Below are positions 1-46,609 of a stretch of 64,000 nucleotides of DNA, in pieces. This DNA is from Paragonimus westermani (taxonomy: Eukaryota; Platyhelminthes; Trematoda; Plagiorchiida; Troglotrematidae). The stretch covers positions 150,665-214,664 of the forward strand of contig QNGE01000741.1 in NCBI GenBank assembly GCA_008508345.1, read 5' to 3'. The position numbers and the translations under genes were made by a program. Numbering within the stretch: the first letter of the stretch is position 1; each line of letters starts with the position of its first letter. The notes under the pieces were generated by a model, which saw only the letters and a list, made by a program, of their open reading frames with translations, searched no databases and was not told where the DNA came from.

Positions 1-150
1 GGAAGTCTAATCGCGGGGCTATCGATTGGAGTTAACAGGACAGTTACTGTGTCTCCTCTCGAGACGATCAGGCAACCTGATCATTGCTCACTAGCGAGAG
101 TGGTTGAGCGTTCAGATTTGATAATTCGGTCGTGCCTGATGTGAGGTCAA

Positions 151-204
151 TGGCGCAGTGGTCGACACGGTTGCCTCATGATTGGAATGGCCGAGTTCAA
201 ATCT
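151..204 (+). promoter_or_regulatory. internal pol III promoter (A and B boxes) of the SINE
   Basis: TGGCGCAGTGG at 151-161 fits a tRNA A box and AGTTCAAATCT at 194-204 fits a B box. Their spacing is that of a tRNA gene, but the flanks do not fold into a full cloverleaf, so this is a tRNA-derived promoter and not a tRNA gene. Confidence 0.65.
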
Positions 205-222
205 CGTCCGTGACAACGATAG

Positions 223-266
223 GCACTACTGACGAGTTCTATGGGAGCGAAACTCGAGTCTAGTGC
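223..266 (+). ncRNA. hammerhead ribozyme (type I, short palindromic stem III)
   Basis: All core elements are present in order. Stem I is GCACTA (223-228) pairing perfectly with TAGTGC (261-266). The catalytic box is CTGACGA (229-235). Stem II is GTTCT/GGAGC around an ATG loop (236-248, two G-U wobbles). GAAA follows at 249-252, then the self-complementary CTCGAG (253-258), then T259-C260 with predicted cleavage after C260. The palindromic stem III, too short to close a loop, is the Sm-alpha design and is known to favour cleavage as a dimer. The pairing is seen in the sequence; activity is inferred. Confidence 0.85.
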
Positions 267-335
267 TTTTTTCCGGAAGAGGCTGGCTGGAGAGTCTATC
301 TGAATGCGAAGGCTGTGATCAAATGTGAGTGATGT

Positions 336-1176
336 TCAACTTGAAAACTTACTGTTCCGTTTATTTTGACTGGAAATTCAAATGCTGTCGTACGCCCTTC
401 TATTTCTCAGTTTGTTCAGCATACTTCCTAGGCGTTTACAACACATTACTATTGATTTTTTGGAATCTGAAAGTGCCGAACTAAGACGAAACGAATGAAT
501 TGCACTGGGCGTCCGGAAAACTCCATTATTGAGTCGTTCATATGCAAACTTGGGTCATCGATGAGGTTGTGGTGATAGCACTTCCGTCTTTCGATTTCCT
601 GCTATCCTATTCCACTTAAACGAGCAGTACCGTTTTCTGGGCGTTTGTCAGGATGGTACATGATTAAAAGGCTTTTTGCATGTGAAGACACATTTTAACA
701 GAAACGACTGTCCAGGGCGAACAAACCGGTTAAATAGCCGTCTAACTCGTTAGACCAACCCCGAGACAACGTCAAGGGATGCACTTAATCCATTTGCCAT
801 GTGACTGGTTGCCGTTTACACTAATGGGCTGAGCTGTTTTGGTTCATTTATTTGTTGTTCCTAAGTGCATCTTATATACAGTTTCTTAACCTCATGTCTC
901 CCCTGTGTTATGATGAGTAAGAATTTGTTAAGTCAGGCAATCGTTTCACGAACATATCGGGACACTCCGCCGCGTGAACGCTAGTCAGAATTTCTTGCCC
1001 ACAGTCTATGGAATGTTAACACAATGTTTTAGACTTCAGTAGAAATGTCTTTTTAACCCATTATGCGTGAACATCGTAGACAGACTTTACACAGTTAACG
1101 TTCAAAGTGGCGCTTGCAGTACGCTAGCTAGCGTACGCAAAAGAATAACCGCCGCTCCTCTTGTCTGTTAACAAAG
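336..1176. other. no gene seen
   Basis: Reading both strands, I see no recognisable coding, RNA or repeat feature between the SINE and the candidate exon at 1177. Confidence 0.5.
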
Positions 1177-5039: not shown

Positions 5040-5377
5040 AACTGGAGCATCAGGGTCAATGAGGTTTTCACACAAACTGAACATCATCCACAAGTCATCG
5101 CAGCTGCAGCGTTCGCATGGATTTTCCAGTGGCCCCTTTCGAACAGAGGCATTAGAGTCGAGTTTCGCTCTTGTGTAAAGCGTAATCTTGCCACGACTGG
5201 GACTGGAACTCCGACCACGTTTTCATGAGGCAACCGTGCTGATCACTGTGGCAATGACCTAACATTGAGCACTGAATCATCATATGTGAACGTTCATTCA
5301 CACTCACTTGTGAGTGATGCTCTGATTGCCCGATCGCCTCGACAGGGGACACAGTAACTGTGCTGTTAACTCCAGTG
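5040..5377 (-). repeat. hammerhead SINE, copy 2a (inverted)
   Basis: Read on the - strand from 5377, this copy follows copy 1 almost from its start: GTTAACAG(C/G)ACAGTTACTG, then the A-box region, then the B-box region GTCGGAGTTCCAGTC, then ribozyme remnants, then a tail ending near GTTCAGTTTG. It is the most complete copy in length but its ribozyme has lost the catalytic box. It lies head to head with copy 2b. Confidence 0.7.
5149..5188 (-). ncRNA. hammerhead ribozyme remnant (core lost)
   Basis: On the - strand the order is a stem II remnant ending in AAGAGC, GAAA, CTCGAC, TC and TAATGC. The CTGANGA box is missing, apparently by a short deletion, and the stem III palindrome is broken (CTCGAC for CTCGAG). 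This copy should not self-cleave. Confidence 0.65.
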
Positions 5378-5429
5378 GATGACCTCTCAACTGGGACTTC
5401 TCCCCGAGTTGAAATTACAGAAATCAATA

Positions 5430-5645
5430 ACTTGTTGATCGAGGTCAACACGGTTGTTTCATGAAAGCGTGGCCGGAGTTCTAGTGGCAGTCGTGGCCAG
5501 GTTATGCATTACCGACGACCTGTAACACAAGAGCGAAACTCGAGTCTAATGCTTCTATTCGAAAGGGGCCGACTGCAAAATCTATGGGAATGCGTCCGCT
5601 GTGATCACTTGTGGATGATGTTCAGTTTATATGAAATGCAAAATC
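5430..5645 (+). repeat. hammerhead SINE, copy 2b
   Basis: Same family as 31-335, from the A-box region through the tail, and about 80 percent like the inverted copy 2a by eye. The promoter boxes are degraded. The sequence between 5378 and 5430 is not shared with the other copies. Confidence 0.65.
5506..5552 (+). ncRNA. hammerhead ribozyme, point-mutated core
   Basis: Stem I is GCATTA (506-511) with TAATGC (547-552). The core box reads CCGACGA (5512-5518) instead of CTGACGA, changing the invariant U4. Stem II region is 5519-5534, GAAA 5535-5538, CTCGAG 5539-5544, then TC. Compared with 223-266, one stem I pair has changed from C-G to T-A with pairing kept. The U4 change is expected to abolish or strongly reduce cleavage. 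Confidence 0.7.
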
Positions 5646-8600
5646 ACCCACTACTCATCAAAGTGGTTCTATCATAAAATGTTTCACTAGTATATAAAAT
5701 AGTAAAACTGTTTATGCAATGACTGTTCCATTAGTATAAGGTTGTTCTCAGTTTAGTTTCACTGTGTGATCTCATTGTTGTGTTGAAGTTACAACACAAC
5801 ATGCTTGTTCATGCTAGTGATCAAATTCTCAAGTTCCGTTTTACTCAGATCACTGTCACTTTGCTGACTAGTTTCTAACACTTGATGTTTTGACGTAACT
5901 GAATAATGGATTCCACTACTTCACGGTTGGGTTAAGGTGGACATTCAGGACTAATCAAGTCACTGGTTGCCCACACGAGATTGTTTGCCCAGTTGGGCCG
6001 TATGTGTGTATGCTAATGGTGTTCCGTTGAAACACCACATGTTCAACGTCGTACTGGCTCAAAAGAGAAAAGGTGAATAGAACGTCTCCAAAACTGTGGT
6101 TAGTATTCTTGCTTCTCCTGCAAAAACACCCTTTCCAAGATCTCGCAGGAGATTCCATTTCTCCAGATCATTGCACTGTCACCGCCGCATCACCATCTAC
6201 GAGGTGCATCAGATTTCTCAGATAAGTCGTGTCGATAGTAGTTCCAACTGTCCATACAACTTGGATGAAATTCATTTCCATCGGGGACCACTTCTCATAT
6301 CGCTGCTCTATTCGGGGGGCGTGCCAGGCAGCTCAAATATATGTTGTGGTACTTCGTTAACGCCAGTGTTCGTCGAAACTATTCATGATCAAGCAATGTC
6401 AAACTTTTCACGATCCACTGGACATTAGTCTATGAAAACCCCAACGTCAAATCCCGTTGGATGGTGCGTATACTGGTGCTTTCTGTAGATACCTCACATG
6501 TGCCTGAAGTTCACAGTTTCTCCTACTTCCAGATCGCCTGATTTTTACCATTGTTTTCCACGGGCTGCATAGAAATTATTTGCTACGAATATTGATTTGA
6601 CAAGTTGCTGCTGGCTTAAAAGTTACCTAAAACCAGAATGTAAGTAACACCAATAACAAAAGGTATATGACACATAAGTGGCAGTGTAATAGATAAGTAA
6701 CATGTGGGAAACAAAACTAACTAACGAAACGTTTGCGATCATCGCAATCCTGAGAGGACGAGAGAAGTGATCTGGATTGTCGTGAATCACCTGTCTTGTT
6801 GGTTAGATTGACTGATGGTTAGCGAACCGTCTTTTTCACATACCGTCTGGTTTATATCTGGTAGACGACCAGCACGACAGTTAACCAGGGATAAAGACTT
6901 TACGGTATTTCCTGATTCAGTGCTTCGCGCGATCTCTCCTGTCGAATGATGCTAACGTTCTCTGTGGAAGGTTTCGGTAAGCTTGCTTATGAATTTTCGG
7001 TGATCAGTAACATGTCGGTTTCAGACAAATGTTTGTCAGTCGTTTCATACACACACTGCAGGAAGTGTGAACACATAACAGTCTGCGTCGGTGGTTGACA
7101 AGTCGTCTCTTTCTTTTTTTCCACTAATTCCATTCGACACGAGAAAGATTTGCGGAATGATATTGGTGCATGATATGACGCGGGGATATCCTGGCAAAGG
7201 TGTGTGCTGCGGACTTGGATTCATTATGGGATTCAGAGTGTAAGGACACTGGAGCCTCGTTTATTCTCCATTCGGCTGGCGTTGGACGCACATAGTCCGA
7301 GTATCGTCGCACCATTATACTATCTTTCTTGTGAGCTAACTGTATTTTAGACAGCTGCGGGTTGCCATGTTTTATTCGACAATTGCAACCGCCGAGTGGG
7401 AAGTAGGGAGGGGGTTGGGTGTAGAAACGAGTTGATTGGTGACGAAGCCACCGCCCGTTTTCTGATATGGCTTCACAACTTGGGCTGGTTGTTTACCTTG
7501 AATAGAATGACAGTCTATGGGACCATGGTTTGGTTAGTAACAAACCATCCTTTCACGGGGCATGGCCAGATGAGTGATTGGTAGCTAAGTGGGTGGCGCA
7601 TAATGCAGCATCGGAGAGTAAGGACTTTTACGGAAGAACCCAGACACTTAGAATGTCACTGACTGGAGCTATCGGGAATGGTGTAGAACCGAGTTAATTA
7701 ACGCTCTTGCTGCAACCGTTTACCGTTTTCTGTTATAGCCGCTGGGAAGGCAGACTTTTTTTTGTCGTAGTTGAACTTTTCTGCTCGTTTGTGATCATCA
7801 TATGGTGGTAATTGCTTTTATTCAGTGGATATAGCAAATGAGCAAACGGAATACAAATCCACTCTGATCAGCGTTTGGCATTCGGCCATCTACTTAGACG
7901 GTTGCCACAACCATTTTTATAAACATCTACACTATCCAGTGTGGAGTAAATGGCTCCGGAGATCAAATGTATCGCGATCAATAAGAGGTATATGCTGGAG
8001 CGAAGTGTCACATAAACATCATAACAACTTGTGCCGATGATCCTTGATTGTGCAAATTTCAAGCACATTTGCAAAAGAGATTTTTCCCTGATATCTGCTT
8101 CTGAATCACCATTCTAAACTTACTAAACATCTCTACGATAGGAAATTTCTGATTGTGATCTCCTTGGAAATTGATTTGAAATCTGCTTGTGAACTGAAGC
8201 TATTTTAGTACCTAAGGACAGTCTTGATTTCCCGTTGTTTTTGGTAGATTTTCTGTCGATATTTCTCAACGGAGTCGCCCAGTTTAGTCTATGTTAATCT
8301 CGAATGACCTTCGTGGTCGATAGTGTCGCTTCCGGAAACACAGGCGAATACCTTCAAACTAGCTCTTCGAATAGACGGAAGGGATTGAACGTGAACGACC
8401 TTCGGTTTCCAACGAGACTTCCAGTATTATGTTGATCAGGCTCATCGATATTATAGTGAGTTATGATATACCCTCGGTTCTAGCCAGTCTGTACAGTTCA
8501 CACTGTGAATAACAATGGTCATCCAATAGACCACCTATGGAACTAATCCTGATGATGATAGGCAACAGCCGTATCAAAATTACATCCGGTTTACCATTCA

Positions 8601-9027: not shown

Positions 9028-9273
9028 GGCTTGTTGGAACTGTCCAACAACAACTTAACTCTCAGTCTGAATCTCACTAGCCACTATGAGAACAGAGACT
9101 TCGCACGTTGACCTCGTGTACTGTTAGAGCCCCTTAAAAGCAATGTGCAGAGGGAGAGACAGAGAGGGAGTTGTAACTTGGCTTAGCAACGGAAAAGATG
9201 ACTTAGCAGTTCGATTTGAACAGAGTAGGCTACAGATTAGAATCGCATAAAAATTCCCAGTGTAATTATAAGA

Positions 9274-9354
9274 AATAATGTGAAGCGAACAAGCTCATTT
9301 TCAGTGGTTTATCATCAGACTAAATATATCACATTTATATCACACATTTTACAA
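9274..9354 (-). repeat. left inverted terminal repeat of the Penelope-like element
   Basis: Reverse-complement match to 10437-10516; shared cores include CGAACAAGCTC, TTTTCAGT and ATCACATTTATATCA. On the - strand it contains CTGATGA (9312-9318), nine bases, then GAAA (9299-9302). Confidence 0.7.
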
Positions 9355-9385
9355 GAGAATCATTAGGGGAGTAAACGGGGAACGG

Positions 9386-9871
9386 GTGGTTAATGACGTT
9401 GACGATATCCTTTGCTTATTCGATAATAACCTAGATCCGACTGAAATCTTGGCCACATTCAACTCCGCACACCAAAATGTGCAACTTTCGTTGGAGACCG
9501 AAGTGAATAACCAATTAGGCTTTTTGGATGTATGTTTACGTCGTCGCGTTGATGACCCAGTTCAGCATGCGGTACACAAAAAGGATAATTGGAATGATCA
9601 ATGCATTCACTTCAATAGTTTCGTATCACTCACCTTGAAAATAAATCTGATCAGTTATTTGATGAGCAAAGCCTTAAGAATTTGCCCAGATAACACCCTT
9701 ACTGAAGAATTGGCATTAATACGTACAGTAATACAGAATGGCTACCCGGAAAGGTTCATTGACACGGTAACAGTGGAGTTAAACAGGCCAGCTGAACCTA
9801 GTAGACAAGAAAACTGTGCACATCGGATTACCATTCAAGGGCTATACGCTAGCCGAAACTATCATGCGTAG
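9386..9871 (+). pseudogene. Penelope-like reverse transcriptase, C-terminal part
   Basis: The open frame begins next to the RT motif C region: VDDILCLFDN matches the YVDDIxCxFDN motif of Penelope RTs, here with N-D-V in place of the tyrosine. The following NSAHQNVQLSLETE, NNQLGFLDVCLRR and HFNSFVSLTLKINLI stretches are typical of the Penelope RT thumb region. The upstream fingers and palm are missing. A frameshift near 9805 moves the conserved frame, and this frame stops at TAG 9869-9871. Its product would be only a fragment of the polymerase. Confidence 0.8.
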
Positions 9872-9886
9872 GCTCACAAATACAGT

Positions 9887-10195
9887 TTGTACAACGTTTA
9901 CGCCGCTAAATTACGTGTCCACTTTACGTCCAATCCAATTTTGTGTCCACGCCCAGAACATACAGTGCCTGTTTCTGTAGCATCGTTTTGTGTAAACTCT
10001 TTCACTTGTTCCCGTGAAGCCAGTTATGTTGACCGCACGACCAGGCGCTTATCTGAATGGGTCTTGGAACACCACCCGGCTTGGTGCAACAGTGGAATAG
10101 CGAAATCTGTCAACAATGCCGTATTATCGTACCTGGCGGGCTTGAATCACTCTGTCAATGTGACGGACGCGTCTCGCCCAGTCTACCGAGCTTAG
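9887..10195 (+). pseudogene. Penelope-like GIY-YIG endonuclease region
   Basis: The frame reads AAKLRVHFTSNPIL, then SFTCSREASYVDRTTRRLSE, EHHPAW and the terminal NHSVNVTDASRPVYR. SYVDRTTRRLSEWVLEHHP corresponds to the GIY-YIG nuclease segment usually read as YxGRTxRxLxxRxxEH, with the glycine replaced by aspartate. In intact elements this domain nicks target DNA for target-primed reverse transcription. It is in the same frame as 9386-9871 but separated by a stop and by two frameshifts. Confidence 0.75.
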
Positions 10196-10436
10196 GTCAT
10201 CCAGTCAAGGGCAGTGAGGCATAGGATTCCGTCTACAGCATAAGCTATTGGAATTCGCTTGTATAACCCGACCCTGTGGACCCAGAAACGTTTTTTAGGC
10301 TTTGGATCTGTGCTGACCACCCCCTGTTTACCTGTCAAAACCCGTTGTTCAAGTGGGCACTTGGTTACAATGTGACACTGAATGGACTGACCACATTGAC
10401 CACCCGTTCATCGTTTACCGCCTTAGTGAATCCACC

Positions 10437-10516
10437 GCAAAATGTTTGATATAAATGTGATGTACTACACTTGATGGGAAATAACTGAAAACGAGCTTGT
10501 TCGTTGCATATTATTA
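10437..10516 (+). repeat. right inverted terminal repeat of the Penelope-like element
   Basis: Inverted partner of 9274-9354, differing by several substitutions. The segment corresponding to CTGATGA reads TTGATGG here, followed by GAAA at 10487-10490. Confidence 0.65.
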
Positions 10517-15109: not shown

Positions 15110-15250
15110 AATAAGCGATGTGGCAGATTTATGATTTTAGATGAGACCCAACTGTGGAAAATCAGGATTTCGACTGGATTCGAACCAACGACAAACATAG
15201 CATGCCTCAACGCGGCAAGCGCTCTACCAGCTGATCTACGAAGCCACACC
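15110..15250 (-). repeat. tRNA-Ala-like SINE, copy ii
   Basis: The better preserved copy. Its head (15175-15247) has CTTCGTAGATCAGCTGG then TAGAGCGCTTGCCGCG and the B box GGTTCGAATCC. The shared body and tail run to about 15110. Together with copy i it forms a tandem pair in the same orientation. The sequence between them (15060-15110) is not part of the core. Confidence 0.75.
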
Positions 15251-22749: not shown

Positions 22750-22868
22750 GATCATTCGGTCATATGTAGTGTGAGATCAATGATACTATAGTCTGCACGG
22801 TTGCCATAAGAAGGCATCGCCAGAGATTGAATCCCAACCGTGACAAGACTATGCACCACTGGCTGACA
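22750..22868 (+). repeat. hammerhead SINE, 5' fragment (no ribozyme)
   Basis: Parallels copy 1 from GGTCATATGTAGTGTGAG through GCACGGTTGCC and the B-box region ATTGAATCCC to CCGTGACAAGACTATGCACCA. It then diverges where the ribozyme should start. Only the promoter half remains. Confidence 0.6.
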
Positions 22869-34449: not shown

Positions 34450-37400
34450 TCAATGATGATAATCTCTATAGATTGTCGGCCATCTAACGGTTCGGCCAGA
34501 ACGGGTGTGTGGTTTGCATGTCTTGGGTTGGGAGGCAGGAAAATGGGTATGGTCACTAGTGTCAAACATAGGTTGGGTAGACTGAGAAAGGTTTTGTGAG
34601 TCGGTAGACGGATCTAGGATACGCTGGCTGAAATCATCGGCATTTTTTATGTCTGGCGGACGAGACGGGGACGTTGAATCCTGGTCGACGTAAGCAACTT
34701 TTAGTCTGTCAATGCTCACCGAGTGACGTGTTCCGTTTTTGTCAATGACAAAATACTTGTCTTTACGATCAAGCACTCTGAAAGGACCATCATACGGCGG
34801 CTGTAGGGGTGTTTTAGGTGAACCAACGCGAATGAAAACAAAAGGACAAGTGCGCAGATCACGATGAATTTGTTCTTGGCGCAGCGTTCTCCGTGGGGGT
34901 GAAGGTTGAATATGCCGCATGTGATTCTTAAGACTCGTGACGTAACTCGTGTCGGGACTCAGATGTACCAAGGAATTAGAGAGAAACTCTCCAGGGATAC
35001 GCAATGTACAACCGTACACGAGTTCTGCTGGGGTGCACCCAACATCTTCCTTGACAGTAGTTCGCAAGCCGAGGAGAATAAGAGGTAGGCGATCAGCCCA
35101 TTTGTCACCAGTCGATGTTGCCATTAAAGATGATTTTAGTTGACGGTGAAACCTTTCGACCATACCGTTTGACGATGGATGGTACGCAGTGGTCGTTATA
35201 TGTTCGCAACCAAGAACGCGATTCAAATCACGAAAAAGAGCTGAAGTAAACTGAGATCCACGGTCAGTGGTGATAGTGGCCGGAACGCCAAAATTCGAAA
35301 TCCACGAATTGACAAAACTGCGTGCGATAGTTTCCGTTGACGTATTGTTCACAGGAACGGCAATGGGCCATCTGGTGAATCGATCCACGCAGGTTAGAAG
35401 ATGTGTATAACCGTTGGAAGGAGGAAGGGGACCAACGATATCAAGGTGGACGTGTTTAAAGCGTCCATCTGGTAAGGCAAAAGTTCCTGGAGTAGTGATG
35501 GTGTGACGATAAACTTTACTACGTTGACATTCCAGGCACTGTTTGGCCCAGTTACGAACATCCTTACGAATGCCGGGCCAAATGTAACGCTCGGTGACTA
35601 GCTTCGTTGAGGCGCGTATGCTTGGATGCGACAAAGAATGGAGGCGGCTAAAAACATCAAACCGGTGTGTGAAAGGAACAAACGGCCGCGATATACCGGT
35701 AGACATATCACACGTAAGTGAATATTCTGACTGGGCTAAAGGAATATCACGCAGTTTTAGAGATGGGTTGGCACGAAGTTGACGAAGTTCTGGGTCATTA
35801 ACCTGGGATTTCGCGAGGGAGAGAAAATCGATGACGCTTGCGGATATTTGACTAACATCCGAACGAGATAAGGCGTCGGCGACAAAATTACTGGAACCGT
35901 CTATAAAACGGATGTCAGTGGTAAACTGAGATATAAAGTCCAGGTGTCTTGTTTCTCTCGGAGAGTACCGATCTGGAGGGGAACGAAAGGCAAACACAAG
36001 GGGTTTGTGATCAGTGAAGACAATGAAGTTGCGACCCTCCAGAAGATGTCGAAAGTGTTTAATGGCAAGGTAAATAGCCAGCAACTCACGACCGAAGGTA
36101 CTGTAGCGCGTTTGCGCTGGTTGGAGTTTTCGGGAGAAAAAGGACAAGGGCTGGATCTCACCATTCACGTTCTGTTGTAAAACAGCGCCAACAGCCGATT
36201 GAGATGCGTCAGTCTTCAGAATCAGCGGCGAGTGTTCATCCGTTCTTAAATGCGTTAATGTGGTTGCTTTGGACAAAGCTTCTTTGGCTGCGAGAAACGC
36301 ACTATTAGCTTCCGGAGACAGAACGAAGTGTTTAGGATTGGCTTTCAAAATGTCCGTGAGGGGTTTTAGAAGTTCTGAACATCGGGGGATAAAACGACAA
36401 TAATAATTGACAATACCTAGGAAGCGTCGGAGACCTTTTAAGGACTGTGGCTGTGGGTAGTCCTTAACAGCACTAATTTTCTCTGGCAAAGGCCGGATAC
36501 CGTTACTGTCGATTCGATATCCGAGAAAATCTATGGAAGTAACTCCGAAGGTACACTTCATAGGGTTTAGCGTGACACCGTATTGGGTAAGACGTTCAAA
36601 CAGCTTTCGAATATGTGACTCGTGCTGTTGAGTGTCCTCACTGGCGACTAAGATGTCGTCAATATAAACGTACACGAAATCTAAACCACGAAGTTCTTGT
36701 TCCATGAACCTTTGGAAAGTCTGTGCAGCGTCCCGTAAGCCAAATGACATATGAACGAATTCATACAGTCCAAAGGGGGTGGTAATGACGGTCTTTGGGA
36801 CGTCTTCCGGGGCCACGGGGATTTGGTGGTAAGCTCGAACCAAATCTATCTTCGAGAAAATGCTCTTGCCGTTTAACCCGATTGTAAAATCGTGAACGTA
36901 AGGAATGGGGTATCGGTCTGGAACGTTGACGTTGTTCAGGGCGCGGTAATCGCCACACGGACGCCAGTCACCTGGTAATTTTTTTGAAACCATATGGAGG
37001 GGTGAGGCCCAGGGACTATTGGAAGGCTGGATAACACCGAGTCGTAAGAGGTGTTTAAACTCTGCTTTGGCCACTTTGAGTTTGTGCGGCGGCAAACGTC
37101 TGGGACGTGCGCATGTAGGTGGGCCTTTGGTGACAATGTGATGGAAAACGTCGTGTTTAGACGGTGACGTTGCATTAGACGGATTTGTTAGTTGTGGAAA
37201 TTGTCGGAAGGTGGCAGCAAAACCGTTATCTGGTATGACCGACCGTAGTCCAATCGAATTGATTGATATGGCCTTGCTATGCACGTATAGGGTTGTTGTG
37301 CTGTCAATTAAGTTACGGTTGCCGACGTCCACTACAAGTCCAAAGAATGATAGAAAATCAATCTCAACGATCAGGTGTTGTACATCTGCCACCGTAAATC

Positions 37401-37644
37401 TCCAAGGGAACTGACGACGGAGGCCGAGATCCAAAGTGAGTAGCTTCTCACTATAAGTTGGAAATGTTGAACGGTTGGCTGCTTGCAGTGTGTAAGATAC
37501 CGGTTTCAGGTTGTGTTTGTCACCTCTTGGTGGGATAACACTAATCTGTGCGCACGTATCAATGAGAAAACTCAGGGCAGTGTAACGGTCGAACACATAA
37601 TATAGGCGACAGTTTGAAGAGCCATGAGCAGCCGTCGCCATCAC
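34450..37644 (-). CDS. pol: Gypsy-1 Pol: protease, reverse transcriptase, RNase H, integrase
   Basis: An uninterrupted 1064-codon frame. The protease motif at residues 29-31 is D-T-C where aspartic proteases have D-T-G, a change expected to stop processing. RT follows with YIDD at 327-330, RNase H with [12 protein letters not shown] and [20 protein letters not shown], and integrase with an H-x3-H...C-x2-C zinc finger and the catalytic triad D735, D794, E830 (35-residue spacing between the last two). The C-terminus has a chromodomain-free tail with [15 protein letters not shown] typical of the group. The frame begins GTG ATG at 37644; the ATG at 37641 overlaps the gag-end TGA as TGATG. Copying and insertion are its roles in the element. 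Confidence 0.92.
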
Positions 37645-38460
37645 TGTCTGGCTTCCGCGTTTTCCGAATGAGGGTTATCCTTAGCAAAACTGCATGGTCT
37701 GGTACAACGGACAGCTTTAGCGCCAAACCGACGATGGTAGTAACACACGTTTTGACTGCCTCGCCGTCTGCGTGAACGACTGGCGGCGGTATGGAGGGCC
37801 TCCTGACTGGGCTGCCAGTTGTTTAGAGATTTCAGAGAGCCGCATGGACATTCCGGAAAACCGTTGTTTCAGAGCGTCCACTTCCGTCGGCCAACTACGG
37901 CCTGAAGACACTTCTGATGAATGCACATGAGATACAGTGCAACTCTGATAACTCTCATATAGTTGGTCAGCCAACTCTGCAAGTTTTTGGAGTGGTGTGT
38001 TCTTATCAAGTATAAACAGTACTTTTCGAATATCGTCTGGCATATTTTTGTGCCATAACTCACGTAGAATTCGTTCGTTTACCGTATGTTTGCCCTGAAG
38101 CTGTGTCATGTGACGGAGGAGTCGTGAAGGAGTTCTGTCACCCAACTCTACTCCTGCCAGAAGTTTGCGCAGGTTCTTCTCGTCGGTTGCTGCAGTTCGT
38201 TTGATGATTGCGGCCTTTAGGGTGTCGTACGAGCTAATGCTGGGTCGAGTGTAGATAAGGTCGGCGACCTCGGTAGCGACCTGCTCAGGGGGGTTGGCAA
38301 CTATGAAATTATACATGGACTTTTGATAACGTATTCTTCTAGAATCAACGATAGCCTCAACTTGAGCAAACCAAAGCCTAGGATTGCGACTACCGAACTC
38401 AGGAAGTTTGACATAAACTACATTCTCCGATGCGGTGGGATCTTGTTAAGAATCGGTCAT
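37641..38460 (-). pseudogene. gag: Gypsy-1 Gag, interrupted
   Basis: Starts ATG at 38458-38460 but has TAA at codon 5 (38446-38448). The frame is then open from 38445 to about 37760: WFAQVEAI at the front and later PSRLLRHMTQLQG and LRELWHKNMPDDIRKVL, the conserved capsid region. The nucleocapsid knuckle C-Y-Y-H-x9-C-x3-C (CsRn1 CHCC type) lies one frame over, near 37735-37690, and that frame ends at TGA 37641-37643. In the capsid frame the sequence stops at TAA 37717-37719. So knuckle and capsid cannot be read together without a frame change. Confidence 0.8.
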
Positions 38461-38569
38461 GTTCAGGGAGAGAGCAAAAACACTCAAAGAAGAAGTCGAT
38501 CAGATGGAGGAAAGAAAATTTCGCGGGGTTGTGTAAAAATGTAGAAAAATAATCGAATGAACAAATGAA

Positions 38570-38582
38570 CTCGTGCTCACCA
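38570..38582 (-). other. Gypsy-1 primer binding site (tRNA-Trp-like)
   Basis: TGGTGAGCACGAG on the - strand, four bases inside the 5' LTR. It resembles the better preserved site in Gypsy-2 (TGGTGAGCCCGACGTGA), which pairs with the 3' end of tRNA-Trp, the primer known for CsRn1. Confidence 0.6.
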
Positions 38583-38586
38583 AATA

Positions 38587-38775
38587 TGTAGTGGAACGGA
38601 GAGTTGGGGGAACTGTACCTCAAGGCCCATTCAAGAATTCACAGTAGGTGTCCGCAACTAATTCCACTGCAATAAGTCTGTTGCGTATCGCAAGAAGATT
38701 CCTCCCTTTAGTAATAACCGATTTGGTTCCTCCAGCGAGCTGTAACAAAAGATCGAAATGGTAACTGACTCTACA
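38587..38775 (-). repeat. Gypsy-1 5' LTR with internal deletion (189 bp)
   Basis: Ends match the 3' LTR (TGTAGTGGAACG... and ...GACTCTACA) but the segment corresponding to about 34209-34350 is absent. The loss removes part of U3/R, so the promoter is probably impaired. Confidence 0.85.
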
Positions 38776-39139
38776 CCATCGACAATCGATCGACAATGAA
38801 AAGCCAAATTTCAGCGCGTTGACTTCGTGTATTATTACCGACCCCTAGAAAATAGAGAGTACAGAGAGACACGTCAAGCAAGCGAGGCAGGGGCGAGTTG
38901 TGTTTTTTAGCCCCGGGCCGGATGTTACAGAATGGGTAGCTTGACTAAGACAATCGTAGGTACAAAACCAAAATCATAGAAAATGTACAGATGACTGCGA
39001 CTATCAAAATATCATTTATTATGGTCGCTACAGTCTTGATGAATGAAATCGTTTGTGTGTATATTTGTGCTGGTTTGTTAATCGCACGGCGAAACTTCCT
39101 CTAGCTCCGCGTGGTTGTTGCCCTATCGACACCGAACGT

Positions 39140-39374
39140 TCGTTCTTACTTATAAGTATACCGTTTGCACATGCCCGTTACTGTTGCAGCTTGCCTGAGG
39201 GTCGCCATATTTTAGTTATTTCTAATCAATCGATTGACTAGGCCACTACACAGTCANTCGTTCTTACTTATAAGTATACCGTTTGCACATGCCCGTTACT
39301 GTTGCAGCTTGCCTGAGGGTCGCCATATTTTAGTTATTTCTAATCAATCGATTGACTAGGCCACTACACAGTCA
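39140..39374. repeat. exact 117-bp tandem duplication split by an N
   Basis: 39140-39256 and 39258-39374 are identical by eye, with the single N at 39257 between them. An identical overlap flanking an N is what uncollapsed contig ends look like, so this is more likely an assembly artefact than biology. Confidence 0.85.
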
Positions 39375-39654
39375 ATGCATTGTCTACGATGCAGCGTGTG
39401 GAATTGATTATCCATTGCCGTCATAACCTTCTCTCTGGCGCTGTTGTTTAAATTGTCCCTTACTCGTTCTTTTGTTATTGGTGTCCTTCATTTTACTTGT
39501 TAACATTCTTCAGCGACCATTAACTTCCGTCATCCCTTTTATTCCGTGTTATCATGTGTTCGGTCATTCTATTGTCAGGTCTATTGGGCCATTAAACTTG
39601 ACGAATGGGATCCACGTCGCAACAGTGTTTCCTTGCTGAACTGTTCTGCACATA
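39375..39654. other. no gene seen
   Basis: Nothing recognised between the duplicated 117-bp unit and repeat R. Confidence 0.4.
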
Positions 39655-40092
39655 TGATTCTGCGTAAGTCTGCCGTAGGAGACTTGATACGAACTCAGTG
39701 CCACTTACGTCAGCAGTGCAACTAACTGCACGCGGTGAACGTTCACCCTTTTCCCAACGATTCCTCTACCATTCCATTCTTCAAGCTCGTTTCGCTGACA
39801 CCTTTTCGAGTGCTGTTTAACGCACCCGAATGTTCTACGCACTTCTCGGCTGGCGTGCTTTTGAGTGCCATCAGGTGGGCCGGAGCCCATGCCACACTTC
39901 TTTTCTTCTCTTGACTGACGCCATTGGTCCCAGGCTAGACTCGAGCTAATTATTTACTGCATTTCTAAACATTGCTGAGATTATACGGTTTATTTCCAAA
40001 CCCCGCTGCGTTCTTTTACTTCGATGTCTGTTGGGACTACGGTTCGATCGTTTTTCAGGGAGAGTTTCAAATTATTAGTGGACGAGGGTTGA
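39655..40092 (+). repeat. dispersed repeat R, copy 3
   Basis: Near-identical to 27971-28408, offset 11684. Ends about 50 bp before the Gypsy-2 LTR. Confidence 0.85.
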
Positions 40093-40141
40093 ACATATAC
40101 TCAGTTGTCAACTACAAACACCCTCTCTTCCCTGTCAGCCG

Positions 40142-40521
40142 TTTAGTGTTCGTCGCAGTAAGTCGCGTTTTCCTCAGGTACGCAATTATCAGACGCGAAA
40201 AGCAAAAGGCCGTTGAGGAGAGAGACCAAATCTTTATTCGACGACATGTACAGGTGATCTCGAATAGCGCCGTAAAAGGCATTGACACGCAAAATAGCTA
40301 GAGAGGCCAGAGACCGGCCGTCAACGAGCGAGTAAACCGGAAGAATGTGACACGTGTGTCCTTCGGGTTCGCGCCACGGTCACATGACATTTAGACAAAC
40401 AATTGGACAGCATGCATCATGCGAGCTTTCTTAATAGCCTAGGTACAATATGCAACTATGCGTTTTGGAACTATTTTACACACCATAGCGCAGGCGGGTC
40501 AGTGAAATCTCTAGGCCGGTA
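40142..40521 (-). repeat. Gypsy-2 3' LTR (380 bp)
   Basis: Same length as 45106-45485 and matching it base for base by eye except at about two sites near 40512 and 40518. Confidence 0.9.
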
Positions 40522-41157
40522 TATAGCGTCAACAACTCTTCGATCCTGACGAGGATAACTGAGGCCAGCCACCCTTGACCTGATCTAGTTCAAGGCGTAC
40601 CAGCCGATATCCAATCAGCCTGCGATTGTTACGAAAATCCCCCAGACGCCGCAGGTGGAGGAACACTAATGCCCACAGTTCCTAGCGAGAAACCACTCGA
40701 GTATCCTCTCTTAGAATTGCCGAAACAACCGTTTAAAAAATGTCCGAGGCGAGTTATCCACGGAACGTTCAAGCACGACATCCAATACGAGATAGAGGAT
40801 GCTCGCGATCGAAGATGCCACACAAGTCGTGCCAGCGTCGGATGAGACATGCGACAGAAAGTCGAACGAAACTGGCTGAGTATCAGTACAGAAATAACTG
40901 ACGTACTCAACCAAATTATTCAGCGAATAGGGACATTCGGGAGAGAGAAACCTGGGCAAACGCGATTGTTTTTGTTTTGAAAACGATATTTTTTGTATTT
41001 TCGAGAGAAAATTTTTTGGAATTTTTTTGTTTTGACCGAAACAAACGAGATTTCACAAACGCTTCATGAGACGTTTCGGCCAGTGCACCCTACGACCTGA
41101 ACGCGTTACGGCGGGTGCTGGCGTCATCGGCAAAGTCGTGATGTCTGCCTAGGACGA
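40522..41157. other. Gypsy-2 segment between pol and the 3' LTR
   Basis: About 0.6 kb on the pol-distal side, T-rich on the + strand around 40965-41035. Small open frames (40629-40959, -) have no recognisable domain and no env-like features. Confidence 0.5.
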
Positions 41158-41552
41158 TTAGCTTGGGCGAGGCTGTTCCGAGGCAGCTGCCGTCGTGGAT
41201 AGAGGCTGCAGAGGAGCACTGAAGGCTTCCTCTGTCCTTTCGAAGTAGGCCGGTTTTAGACGATCGATGCTAACCATGTCCCGAATACCTTGACGCTCGA
41301 GCACGTAAACGCGACCCTTCCGTTGAAGTACTCTGAAAGGACCTTCGTAAGGTCGTAAACCATCTACGCGAACAAACACATGTGTGCAGTCGTGGAGGTC
41401 TTTAGGACCAAACACCTTGTGGCTTTGTTCTCGTGTGTACGTGACACGGAGGCGACGCATGTGAGAAGCGAGTTGTTTGGCGTAAGATGCATCATATCGA
41501 AGGGCGTCGGTGGCGAATAAAAAGTAATCGCCAGGAAGACGCAGTGGTTGGC
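41158..41552 (-). pseudogene. pol: Gypsy-2 Pol C-terminal tail
   Basis: Continues the integrase frame after the TAA at 41554: GQPLRLPGDYF, then the frame 41158-41460 with THVFVRVDGLRPYEGPFRVL, VYVLERQG and MVSIDRLKPAYF, the usual end of CsRn1-type Pol. Confidence 0.8.
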
Positions 41553-41553
41553 C

Positions 41554-42945
41554 TTACAGGAGGTCGGCGCTGGAAACGTGAAAGTCGGTCTTAAGGGCGG
41601 CGCGGATGCCGAGTAAAACCATTGGCAGGGCTTCTGTCCGACGGATTGCGTCGACCGCGGCGAGGGCTGCTTTTAGATGGCGGTGGAAGCGTTCGACCAT
41701 ACCGTTTGCAGCCGGGTGGTATGCCGTGGTCCGCGTGCGATGACATCCAAGCGCGCTCAGTGTTTCCGCAAAGGAACAGCTCTCGAATTGAGGGCCACGG
41801 TCGGTCGTACCCGTGGCCAGGCAACTATGAGATGCTACCCAACGCTCAACGAATGCGCGTGCTACAGTCTCAAAACGGACGTCGGTTATGGGGACGGCCT
41901 CTGGCCACCGCGTGAAACGATCTATCATCGTCAAAAGATATGTCATCCCATTGGAAGGTGGCAAAGGACCTACAATGTCGATGTGGAGATGAGCAAGTCG
42001 AGATGTAATCGAAGGGAATCGGCCAATCGGGGCCGACACGTGGCGGTGAACCTTAGCCTGTTGACAAGCTAGGCAAGATTGTGCCCACGTGCGAAGATCC
42101 TTTTGCATACCAGGCCAGACGTACCTATCGGAAATGAGCTTGGCCGTGGCCCGGATGCCAGGATGGGCTATGTTGTGTAGCGTGTCGAACACGCGTCGTC
42201 GGAAAAGAGTAGGAACTACTGGACGTGGATGTCCAGTAGAGGTATCGCAAAGGATAGTGTCTGCAGACGCTGGCAAAGGTTGATCAGTCAGCCGTAGGGC
42301 TGATTGTTGGCAGGAGGCGCGGAAATCATTTTCCGAACGTTGTGCGTTGGCCATAGCGTTTAAGTCGATTGAGTCGTGACCAACTAGTGCCGACACTCGG
42401 GATAAAGCGTCAGCCACAACGTTATCGCTGCCAGAAACGTGGCGTACATCAGACGTAAACTGGGATACGAAGTCCAGATGGCGAACTTCGCGGGGCGAAT
42501 GTCTCTCAGACCTACTGCGGAAGGCGAAAATCAACGGTTTGTGGTCGGTGAAAATCACAAACTGGTTTCCCTCGAGGGCATGTCGGAAGTGCCGAACGGC
42601 CGAGTAAATTGCTAACAACTCACGACCGAACGTGCTATACCTAGTTTCAGCCGGAAGTAAACGTCTGGAAAAGAAAGCGAGCGGTTTCCAGAGTCCATCG
42701 ACGAACTGTTGAAGTACGGCGCCGACTGCGGTGTCTGACGCGTCAACAGCTACACTTATTTCCGCGGCTGAGTTGAAGTGGTGCAACATAACGGCGGTGG
42801 CTAATGCGTCCTTAGATCTATCGAACGACTCGATGGTTGTTGTTGATAACTCTACGACTCCGTTGACACGGCCGCGGAGTAAATCGGTTAAAGGCTGCAT
42901 AAGCTGAGCGCAATGTGGAATAAACCGCCTATAGTAGTTGACCAT
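41554..42945 (-). pseudogene. pol: Gypsy-2 RT end, RNase H and integrase
   Basis: Open for 463 codons. It has the RT connection MVNYYRRFIPHCAQLM, RNase H with [16 protein letters not shown] and [20 protein letters not shown], and an integrase with HNIAHPGIRA, then CLACQ as the zinc finger, [19 protein letters not shown] and [11 protein letters not shown] carrying the D-D-E triad. It stops at TAA 41554-41556, in the position of a tyrosine codon in the related elements. Its catalytic residues look intact. Confidence 0.88.
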
Positions 42946-43103
42946 CCCGTTAAATCGACGAATAGCGGCGAGGGTGGTAGGACGGGGAAAATCGCGGATT
43001 ACTCTTACCTTATCGGTTAACGGTCGAATACCGTGCTGGTCAACGTAATGTCCTAGAAACTCTATCGCTGATTGATCAGAAACACGCTTCTCTGCGTTAA
43101 TCG

Positions 43104-44783
43104 TTATGCCAAAAGTTGCAGATGAATCTGGTGTTCTTCAGGCGCGCTTGTAAATAATAGGTCATCGACGTAGGGGTGGATGAAATCCAGACCCCGTGTG
43201 ACGTCGTCGATGAAACGTTGAAACGTTTGTGCAGCGTTTCGCAAACCAAACGGCATACGTAGAAACTCGAATAAACCGAATGGTGTGATGACGGCTGTTT
43301 TGGCAACATCCTCATCCGCAACCGGGATCTGGTGGTATGCGCGCACCAGATCAATTTTCGAGAAAACACGGGTACCATGAAGGCTAGCCGTGATGTCCTG
43401 TATGTGCGGAATCGGGTACCTGTCGGGTATTGTGGCGTTGTTGAGCGAACGATAATCTCCACACGGGCGCCAATCGCCTGACGCTTTAGGGACCATGTGG
43501 AGTGGAGAGGCCCAAGGGCTACTGGACGGGCGAGTGATTCCAAGCTCGAGCATGTGCTCAAACTCAGCGCGAGCTATTTTAAGCTTGTCTGGTGTCAACC
43601 TGCGAGCTTTGGCGAACACCGGCGGGCCTGTCGTGACTAGGTGGTGCCTCGTGGAACCCCTGACGGCAGGCAGAGATGAAGACTGTCGAAAAACAGTCGG
43701 ATACTTATCGATTAGGAAACTAAAGGAGTTTAGTTTCGTAGAGCTTTGATATACGGGACTGACTGATACCTTATCGGTCAAAATCCCTGTAACTGTAAGC
43801 TTTGTCGTTTGGTCGACCAGACGGTGTCGTCTGGAATCTACCAAAAGGTCGAAGTGCTGGAGAAAGTCGATACCGATAATCGCCATTTGGACGTCGGCGA
43901 CCGTGAAGATCCAGCGGAAAGGCCTACGGAGACCTAAATTAAGTGTGCGAGAGCGCTGACCAAACACTTTTATAGTGCTTCCGTTGGCCGCGCGAAGATT
44001 CGAAATAGATGACCTGTTTAAGTCGTGGGTCTCAGGTGGGATCACGCTGACCTCGGCACCTGTGTCGATAAGATAGCGAATCCCCGACTCGTGATCTTTT
44101 AGAAAGAACAGGCGACCAGGCGGGCCAGTTACGTCGTTAACCATGTGGATTTGGCTGCCCTGTTTGCTGACTGGACCAAAGGTACAAGGCTGTCGGCATC
44201 GTCGGGCTTTCTTGCCAAATTGCTGGTGATACCAGCAGTGATCCGGATTAGCGTTCGGTGGCGCCTGACGAGAATCACGTGACCCTGCGTGGCTACTGTG
44301 TCGTCGAATGGGGGTAGTCGAACGTGATCTCGAACGATGCGTCGTTAAGGCCTGAAGTTGTTTAGTTAGGGTGGCAACTTGAGCAGTTAGAGTTGCAATT
44401 GCGCCCTGACTATTCGAAGCGAGCTGGGAAACAGCGGTGCCGTATGTTTCCCCGATCCGGTCGGCGACATCAGCCAAGGTTGACAAGGTTGCTGATGGGT
44501 TTGCGCTAAGAATGTTTTGCATATCCTTAGGCAAACGCTGTAGCCACATCTCCCAAAGTAGAGCCTCTTCTATGTGTGTCGTGCCAGCTAACCGCTGCAT
44601 GTGGCGAAGAAGCTGCGATGGTTTACGGTCACCGAGTTCGGTCGCACTCAGAAGCTGAGAAATACGTTGGCGATCGGACAAACCAACGCGCTTAATTACG
44701 GCCGCTTTAAGTTGCTCGTAGGGCTCCGTGGAGTCCGGTGACTCCAGAACATCGTCCACCTCGTCAATGACGTGAGATGGCAA
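43104..44783 (-). pseudogene. gag-pol: Gypsy-2 Gag end, protease and reverse transcriptase
   Basis: 559-codon frame. It holds the end of the capsid ([13 protein letters not shown]), the CHCC knuckle C183-x2-H186-x9-C196-x3-C200, an intact protease motif D240-T-G, and RT with LVRAYHQIP and YVDD at 538-541, ending prematurely at about HQIHLQ. The conserved RT sequence resumes in another frame at about 43125 (FGITINAEK), after loss of a few codons. The upstream capsid frame (WFAQLESIF) is cut off by TAG at 44814-44816. Gag and Pol are one frame here, unlike the staggered layout at the knuckle in Gypsy-1. Confidence 0.88.
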
Positions 44784-44960
44784 TGTCGCAACTACGTGAT
44801 GAAAACGCGTTGACTATGAACTAATCTGTCGTGGCGCAAATATGGATTCTAACTGAGCAAACCACGATTTAGGATTATTCTTTCTAAGGGGTGCAAATGG
44901 TACGGCTAATGCACTGCCCAAAGCGTCTGACAAAACGTGCGGTTGAGCCTCCAATAAAGC
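44784..44960 (-). pseudogene. gag: Gypsy-2 Gag N-terminal part
   Basis: Same frame as 43104-44783: ALAVPFAPLRKNNPKSWFAQ and ESIFAPRQISS, then TAG (44814-44816), then [16 protein letters not shown]. No start codon could be assigned. Confidence 0.7.
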
Positions 44961-45087
44961 GGAATGGATAATAAATAAGATTTTTATTCAAAAAATGAAT
45001 ATGTAAAATGCATAAAACAATAGCAACTCACAGTTATACAAAGGATATACCTGTGAAAAGCAAAAACTGTTCGAACAGGCTCACCAG

Positions 45088-45485: not shown

Positions 45486-46609
45486 CCGGTTGCAGGAGGA
45501 ATCGAGCTAAGCGAGGGGAGACGGAGCTCTAGAAGTAACGGGAGCTGGGCACATAGTAAAAATGGGGTTGGACACCCTGAAAGGATATTTCCGCAGATTT
45601 GTGCCGCTGTTGGGAGCCATTTCCTAATAACATAGCTGTTGTCATTCGCACACGGTGTGTGGGAACATTATTTTTGTGGTGTGGTGGACTTTTATGAACA
45701 ATAGTCCACCCTCCGACGAGTTCTGTGAAGGGGTAGCGGTAGTCTAAACTGGAACACGGTTTATGGTTGTCAACGCCAGCAATAATAATGACAATATTAC
45801 TGATGAGTCGGTGGAGTGAAATCAATGCGGGTCAAAGGTCGTCTACTGGCCATTGCAGAAGCCATCGCAATCCGCTAATATTCACCACCGCTATGCTCAC
45901 AGAAACATCTGTTCAAAACACTGAATCTTTTGTGGCCCTGTATCAATAGCCTGGATCGATCTGCTTCATAGGTGTACCGATGTTTCGAAGACGTTTACAA
46001 CCCAATTCACTGATGCTACATGACTAGATCTGACGAGTTTGACTAGCTGCACATTAATGATCACCATCCTTCACCCCACTGACACACTACCCCCAGCGAA
46101 ACCAGATAAATGTGCTGTATTTAAACTGATAAGGAAGCGCTGGAAAGGAGCTTGTTTGCTACGAGTTTTTTCCCATGACGAAACTGGGCACATTTACGGT
46201 ACTCAAAAAAATAGACCCCACTGTAATGAAAAAATTTAATAAGTATATTGGGTTCAGTACATGAATGGCGGAGGCAAACGTGGTTGTTGAGTTTTTCTAA
46301 CAATGTATCAATGCAGCGATACTGGACCATCTTCAGACGAAATGGCACTAACACGGAACTTCACTACAGCGACTAGCTATAAATGAGAAGAACACATGGA
46401 CGATCAGTGCACGTGACAGGGACTACAAGCAGACTGTTTCCGCGAGGATATTGGCAGAGTTGCCACCGAATAAGGCAAACGAGTTTGAGAGTTACCTTCA
46501 ACAATAGCCAATGTTCAGAAGTCTATCGTCAACAACAAGTCAATGGTGCAGGAATAACTTTGTCAAGATTCGTGCTAATGATGTCAAGAGTTCAGCGGAT
46601 TGATGGTGC
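45486..46609. other. no gene seen
   Basis: Only short overlapping frames. A hammerhead-like string at 45800-45821 was considered and rejected. Confidence 0.4.

Follow-up and report, generated by a model that had tools for sequence, protein, structure and literature searches.

Sm-alpha of schistosomes carries pol III boxes and a hammerhead ribozyme with a palindromic stem III. Together with Sj-alpha, it has been reported as a high-copy, SINE-like element with a type I hammerhead, and Sm-alpha itself as derived from tRNA-Gln (PMC2770079, PMC8490949). A further group of animal elements, the non-LTR retrozymes, consists of tandem units of a few hundred base pairs, which contain a type I hammerhead, have a low GC content and give a strongly self-paired RNA (PMC7229834), and which, according to a review, seem to lack promoters (PMC7761336). 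Penelope-like elements (PLEs) were proposed as helpers of the retrozymes, without a proving motif (PMC7229834, PMC7761336), and the same 2020 review describes the repeats as free of any conserved motif that would betray the helper (PMC7761336). PLEs themselves occur as tandem repeats with a hammerhead, mutation of which was no hindrance to insertion in vitro (PMC11167929). The protein of an anole PLE cuts and extends both target strands, and reverse transcription begins at two adjacent internal sites, which results in an optional tail of 30–40 bp (PMC11167929). For rotifer PLEs, inverted pLTRs in a mostly head-to-head arrangement, a 31-bp tail and duplications of 8–10 bp were reported, and insertion in trans with pLTRs alone has been described (PMC3846280).

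Here, we analysed a stretch of 64 kb (hereafter the window) with a hammerhead at positions 223–266, which belongs to an element that we call family A. With Sm-alpha and Sj-alpha, family A has in common the hammerhead-bearing, SINE-like plan of flukes, a likeness at the level of published descriptions; this genome differs in holding at least three such families and in insertion traits of the PLE type, for which we met no description in Sm-alpha within the literature consulted. Compared with the retrozymes, which seem to lack promoters according to the review, family A contains A and B boxes within its unit. Our literature search, outside which the key papers of 1998 and 2014 lie, yielded no account of families A, B and C, and within the same limit none of PLE-type insertion traits in hammerhead SINEs.

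The ribozyme and its copies in the window

An Rfam search of the window gave a full-length match to the type I hammerhead (RF00163) at positions 223–266 of the plus strand, with 34.4 bits at a gathering score of 34 (E 8.3e-5), and RF00163 was the sole Rfam family that reached its cut-off in the 64 kb. A lax scan of the window (E ≤ 10) revealed no second hammerhead. The boxes were located where the preliminary description had placed them, and the covariance-model search that it had suggested for the type I hammerhead confirmed its claim with this above-threshold match. The features of the element in the window are as follows (percentages refer to the 431-bp unit of family A).

1–347, plus strand: family A copy (blast, 92%), 5' side lost to an assembly gap
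151–161, plus strand: A box TGGCGCAGTGG, agreeing with the consensus at all 11 places
195–203, plus strand: B box GTTCAAATC, full consensus
223–266, plus strand: type I hammerhead with palindromic stem III, predicted cleavage after C260 (Rfam and box reading)
223–228, plus strand: hammerhead box, 5' strand of stem I, GCACTA
229–235, plus strand: hammerhead box, core CTGACGA
236–248, plus strand: stem II of the hammerhead
249–252, plus strand: hammerhead box, core GAAA
253–260, plus strand: CTCGAGTC, between GAAA and the 3' strand of stem I
261–266, plus strand: hammerhead box, 3' strand of stem I, TAGTGC
267–272, plus strand: T6 run adjoining the ribozyme (unit 350), possible pol III terminator
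5073–5430, minus strand: old family A copy, minus arm of a head-to-head pair (71–72%)
5443–5660, plus strand: old family A copy, plus arm of the 5073–5660 pair, with a dead ribozyme (75–77%)
22750–22861, strand not recorded: old family A fragment, unit 198–310 (70%)

Stem II of the ribozyme at 223–266 has the 5 bp described before, though two of them are G-U pairs, and loop II is one base shorter than in the adjoining inverted arm. When folded locally, this copy takes a rival hairpin as its minimum-energy structure; in the fold of the reference copy L068, stems I and II both form. The ribozyme at 223–266 is thus a slightly worn copy. The surrounding copy at 1–347 represents one arm of a head-to-head pair, the other arm of which is located at C741:148628–149007, past a run of 1,657 N; aligned over 343 columns, the arms show 96% identity.

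The preliminary description had also noted pol III boxes just upstream, and indeed the A and B boxes are both of full consensus; they correspond to positions 229–282 of the unit, and about 0.17 such full-consensus pairs would be expected per 64 kb. The 431-bp unit contains a single T4 run, immediately 3' of the ribozyme at unit 350. The proposed plan of Sm-alpha, with a type I hammerhead, high copy number, A and B boxes and a palindromic stem III, was found in all its parts. The label "tRNA-derived" is only partly borne out: the A and B boxes are full, but the tRNA model RF00005 did not match the element, either in the window (E ≤ 10) or in nine loci including L068 (E ≤ 1), although old copies may have drifted. 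Elsewhere in the window, a tRNA-like repeat without hammerhead is located at 15165–15245 on the minus strand (RF00005, 26.3 bits, cut-off 29; six copies in the window according to blast), and long frames on the minus strand at 34450–45000 resemble, by eye, a Ty3/gypsy gag-pol.

A second copy at 5506–5552 had been taken as evidence for covariation. Its stem I reads GCATTA/TAATGC, so that the change from C-G to T-A relative to 223–266 does exist, but the core is CCGACGA, stem II does not form, and the copy was not listed in the Rfam scan of the window even at E ≤ 10. This ribozyme is a dead copy in an old head-to-head insertion. Among the collected copies, the 3' strand TAATGC was found only in the two arms of the 5073–5660 pair, and just one of these arms has kept the matching 5' strand. 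The change, one event in dead DNA, may go back to a source lineage in which it had been compensated.

Three hammerhead families and their covariation

When up to three mismatches were allowed, the hammerhead core pattern matched 14,562 times (7220 + 7342) in the 823-Mb genome. The reversed control pattern was absent, and we therefore conclude that the hammerhead core is commoner than expected by chance. That the ribozyme motif lies inside a high-copy element is as good as certain. The genome-wide Rfam search, in which 74 of 136,546 candidates were scored, listed 72 matches, 35 of them above the cut-off. The 72 matches were sorted by eye (30 loci), by blast (37) or by their location within further loci (5), and they split into three families, A, B and C, with the exception of L080, which had no blast match and looks like family A. 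Families B and C follow the ribozyme plan of family A with different stems and a different palindromic stem III (ACUCGAGU in A, ACAGCUGU in B and ACCGGU in C). The A box is full in the reference sequences of families A and B and absent in C; a B box precedes the ribozyme in the references of B and C as it does in A. Family B, with 133 matches at up to one mismatch (some few of other kinds; control 0), is small and old.

Two peculiarities of the other families may be added. A family C copy (L019:1492–1560) obtained its top score with Rfam Hammerhead_HH9 (47.5 bits, cut-off 52). In family B (e.g. L018), a GGTGG a few bases downstream could, by eye, serve as an alternative partner for CACCAC, the 3' strand of stem I, an alternative pairing that might drive cleavage forward.

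For covariation within the families, we used copies not chosen by the Rfam model (61 of family A, 22 of family B), in which the core was intact in 52 and 8 copies, respectively. Double compensations numbered three in family A compared to a shuffled mean of 0.97, a value reached in 61 of 1000 shuffles, and five in family B compared to 4.37 (464 of 1000 shuffles). Within both families, covariation thus did not clearly exceed the shuffles, and the earlier claim of covariation, for which a collection of all copies had been proposed as the check, was not upheld within family A. Little covariation is to be expected inside a family of elements whose copies should decay without constraint. In the old copies, conservation of the core was 0.79 compared to 0.69–0.80 in other parts (13 rows not chosen by the model), a contrast that we set aside as too weak. 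Between the families, all six stem I pairs were changed on both sides in an alignment of 12 sequences from A, B and C, in which 94.7% of the cells were paired and the covariation score was reached by none of 500 shuffles; 11 of the 12 rows were Rfam matches, which favours pairing, and L068 came from a DNA search. With the reservation that 11 of 12 rows are such matches, the covariation between families is strong, and better evidence than that within them.

Unit, ends and junctions of family A

The family A unit comprises 431 bp with a GC content of 0.478, and the ribozyme occupies unit positions 302–346 with the predicted cut site after 340. Arrays reach 1,062 bp, which corresponds to about 2.5 units (L068), and among the 100 matches listed two pairs of same-strand neighbours are exactly 431 apart. 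The folding energy of the unit RNA is −139.9 kcal/mol (z −2.75), a value as low being found in none of 100 shuffles. As a tandem repeat within the range of about 150–450 bp, with a type I hammerhead and a GC content below 50%, family A qualifies as a retrozyme unit; its length falls far below what the 838-aa frame of the local PLEs requires, so that it does not qualify as a PLE.

From the 69 readable 3' ends, 26 were located at ...ACTTGAAAAT, 32 at ...CTCATCAGTAAT and 11 elsewhere, so that 58 ends fall on two fixed sites about 31 nt apart; the 30 nt between the sites are 73% A+C. The 56 readable 5' ends were scattered (P 0.22 for the fullest 20-nt window) and did not accumulate at a pol III start; one of them was located 3 nt or less from the cut site, as many as chance would give. 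It therefore seems that the usual template is not a discrete pol III transcript, and not a linear monomer cut by the ribozyme either, whereas a circle or a concatemer would fit. Inverted fragments starting at unit 340–359 had suggested cut RNA; the junctions disagree with this, as does the single 5' end near the cut site, and we rejected the idea. Likewise, we dismissed a hammerhead on the minus strand of the tail (plus-strand sequence ACTCATCAG), as Rfam gave no match there in L068.

Across the window and 107 loci, we then counted neighbours of one family that are less than 250 bp apart, after merging pieces on the same strand that lay within 150 bp of each other. Head-to-head pairs numbered 20 in family A, 19 in B and one in C, tail-to-tail pairs were absent, and same-strand neighbours occurred once each in A and C. 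In a list of 100 matches unselected for pairs, six head-to-head and two tail-to-tail pairs were found within 600 bp, and among the 100 family B matches listed three head-to-head and no tail-to-tail pairs within 300 bp. A repeat without ribozyme (D) showed two head-to-head and one tail-to-tail pair, its six copies, all in the window, being too few as a control. The head-to-head junctions of family A were fused (−12 to +20 bp, with one of 103; the L069 junction contains N). Of the tail-to-tail pairs, that of L121 has its aligned parts separated by up to 315 bp of other DNA, and L120 is a true fusion of two family A copies, the arms of which share a loop II variant.

A head-to-head junction was contained in 16 of the 38 insertions with clean flanks. 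Target duplications of at least 7 bp were present in four of the 38, compared to about 1% or less in shuffles, one example being the 8-bp duplication around the head-to-head pair L071; most of the 38 insertions have no clear duplication. In 14 comparisons of inverted arms, rare variants were shared in five and none was shared in nine; tandem rows were left out of this comparison, since those with overlaps of 60–85 bp may be one DNA stretch aligned twice. The arms showed on average 7.7 differences per 100 bp compared to 8.7 between loci, and most of the arms that had no rare variant in common were 7–18% apart. Given the nine comparisons without a shared variant, many pairs seem to need two RNAs. 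On contig C345 (231000–242500, L072), an inverted duplication about 10.5 kb across has identical hammerhead matches on both sides and is either a palindrome or an assembly artefact.

Penelope-like elements and the origin of the copies

PLEs are frequent in this genome, with at least 152 matches (150 of 12,557 candidates scored). Among the matches listed, PLE pairs within about 6 kb were arranged head-to-head in four cases, two of which are perhaps one locus counted twice, tail-to-tail in none and on the same strand in three. L112 contains a PLE tandem of 2,634 bp; it includes a frame of 838 aa, an RVT_1 domain and a part, unlisted by Pfam, which by eye we take to be the GIY-YIG domain. The PLE protein had its best match in P. 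westermani (95% identity over 77% of the query), and the host is therefore most probably a Paragonimus. In the window, one PLE copy has the head-to-head plan that is also seen in the hammerhead element.

9267–10515, plus strand: PLE copy
9267–9399, minus strand: inverted pLTR of this copy
from about 9395, plus strand: reverse transcriptase of this copy, 5'-truncated
10353–10515, plus strand: direct pLTR of this copy

A second PLE end fragment is located at 46103–46179. The 3' ends of families A, B and C showed a likeness to two PLE families that was within the range of shuffles, and shared 3'-end motifs of the elements and PLEs, alike by eye, were dropped because their scores were within chance. 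As a candidate for a PLE hammerhead we considered a conserved CTGATGATGAATCACTGAAAAC-like stretch that opens the next unit, yet Rfam lists nothing for L112 (E ≤ 10). In L117, an old family A copy (680–1099, about 70%) starts about 30 bp behind a PLE 3' end in the same orientation, an arrangement that is perhaps due to a template switch or to nested insertion.

As described in the literature (PMC11167929, PMC3846280), endonuclease-bearing PLEs resemble family A in partial tandems, head-to-head ends, an optional tail of 30–40 bp, short target duplications, 5' truncation and the hammerhead. Family A differs from them in its 431 bp without a reverse transcriptase of its own and in a 3' end unlike that of the two PLE families compared. 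With two 3' ends, tandems, head-to-head pairs and short duplications (4 of 38), its insertion anatomy matches that of a partner mobilised by PLEs, and "SINE" is therefore too simple a label. Taken together, hammerhead, pol III boxes and palindromic stem III remain from the preliminary description, but not the covariation from two copies or the simple SINE.

We consider it more probable than not that family A is a non-coding, high-copy hammerhead retroelement with a pol III-type promoter, the copies of which are made by the reverse transcriptase-endonuclease of PLEs; catalysis, RNA circles and the role of the PLEs are the parts of this model that we infer. The hammerhead would cut transcripts of tandem units into 431-nt monomers, which would be ligated into circles, or else the tandem transcripts might serve uncut, as concatemers. 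The PLE protein would begin reverse transcription at one of the two fixed sites about 31 nt apart, on either side of the AC-rich stretch, and could copy on both cut target strands, often using a second RNA. Copying that stops at random would leave 5'-truncated, partly tandem and head-to-head copies, some of them with short target-site duplications. Since no ribozyme-cut 5' ends are seen, insertion may proceed without the action of the ribozyme, as has been reported for the PLE of the anole. Several observations speak against the PLE model, namely the T run behind the ribozyme, which would halt a pol III transcript before the needed 3' end, the L120 fusion, the lack of a shared PLE 3' end and the mostly missing clear duplications.

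The full A and B boxes and the high copy number would suit a tRNA-type SINE of the Sm-alpha kind that is moved by a LINE; the ribozyme would then be a passenger, and twin priming on a single RNA would produce the head-to-head pairs, and Sm-alpha was indeed reported as SINE-like and tRNA-Gln-derived (PMC2770079). We regard this explanation as unlikely, because the 5' ends do not pile up at a pol III start, the tandem units are exactly 431 bp long, the 3' ends fall on two fixed sites, and the arms observed here overlap in sequence and both have the element's own 3' end outward, which is not an outcome of twin priming on a single RNA. Quite unlikely, in our view, is a non-LTR retrozyme that spreads via circles with a reverse transcriptase other than that of PLEs, its likeness to PLEs being convergent. 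The tandem 431-bp hammerhead unit, its GC content of 0.478 and its z score of −2.75 are as in reported retrozymes (PMC7229834), and no PLE 3' end is shared; however, tail, head-to-head and tandem traits occur together in the manner of PLEs, and no other helper was found in a search confined to PLEs.

Assembly or library artefacts, to which loci duplicated in the assembly (L066/L067, L073/L074), the large inverted duplication of contig C345, the 1,657-base N run that splits the window's own pair and the N within the L069 junction might point, are a highly improbable source of the head-to-head pairs and arrays: the arms stop at the element's own 3' sites, non-sharing arms are mostly 7–18% apart, an 8-bp duplication flanks one pair, and two other contigs also show the spacing of exactly 431 bp.

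As a wider and rather doubtful proposal, animal hammerhead SINEs and retrozymes might in general parasitise PLEs, which would read RNA structure instead of a common sequence and copy two RNAs simultaneously, one per target strand, into head-to-head pairs. If this is true, the palindromic stem III, found with different letters in each of the three families, could hold two RNAs together and thereby serve both dimerisation of the ribozyme and paired insertion. The presence of at least three ribozyme families in one animal allows the roles of the ribozyme, the palindromic stem III and circles to be compared. The insertion footprint in this fluke genome points to PLEs as the helper of its hammerhead elements.
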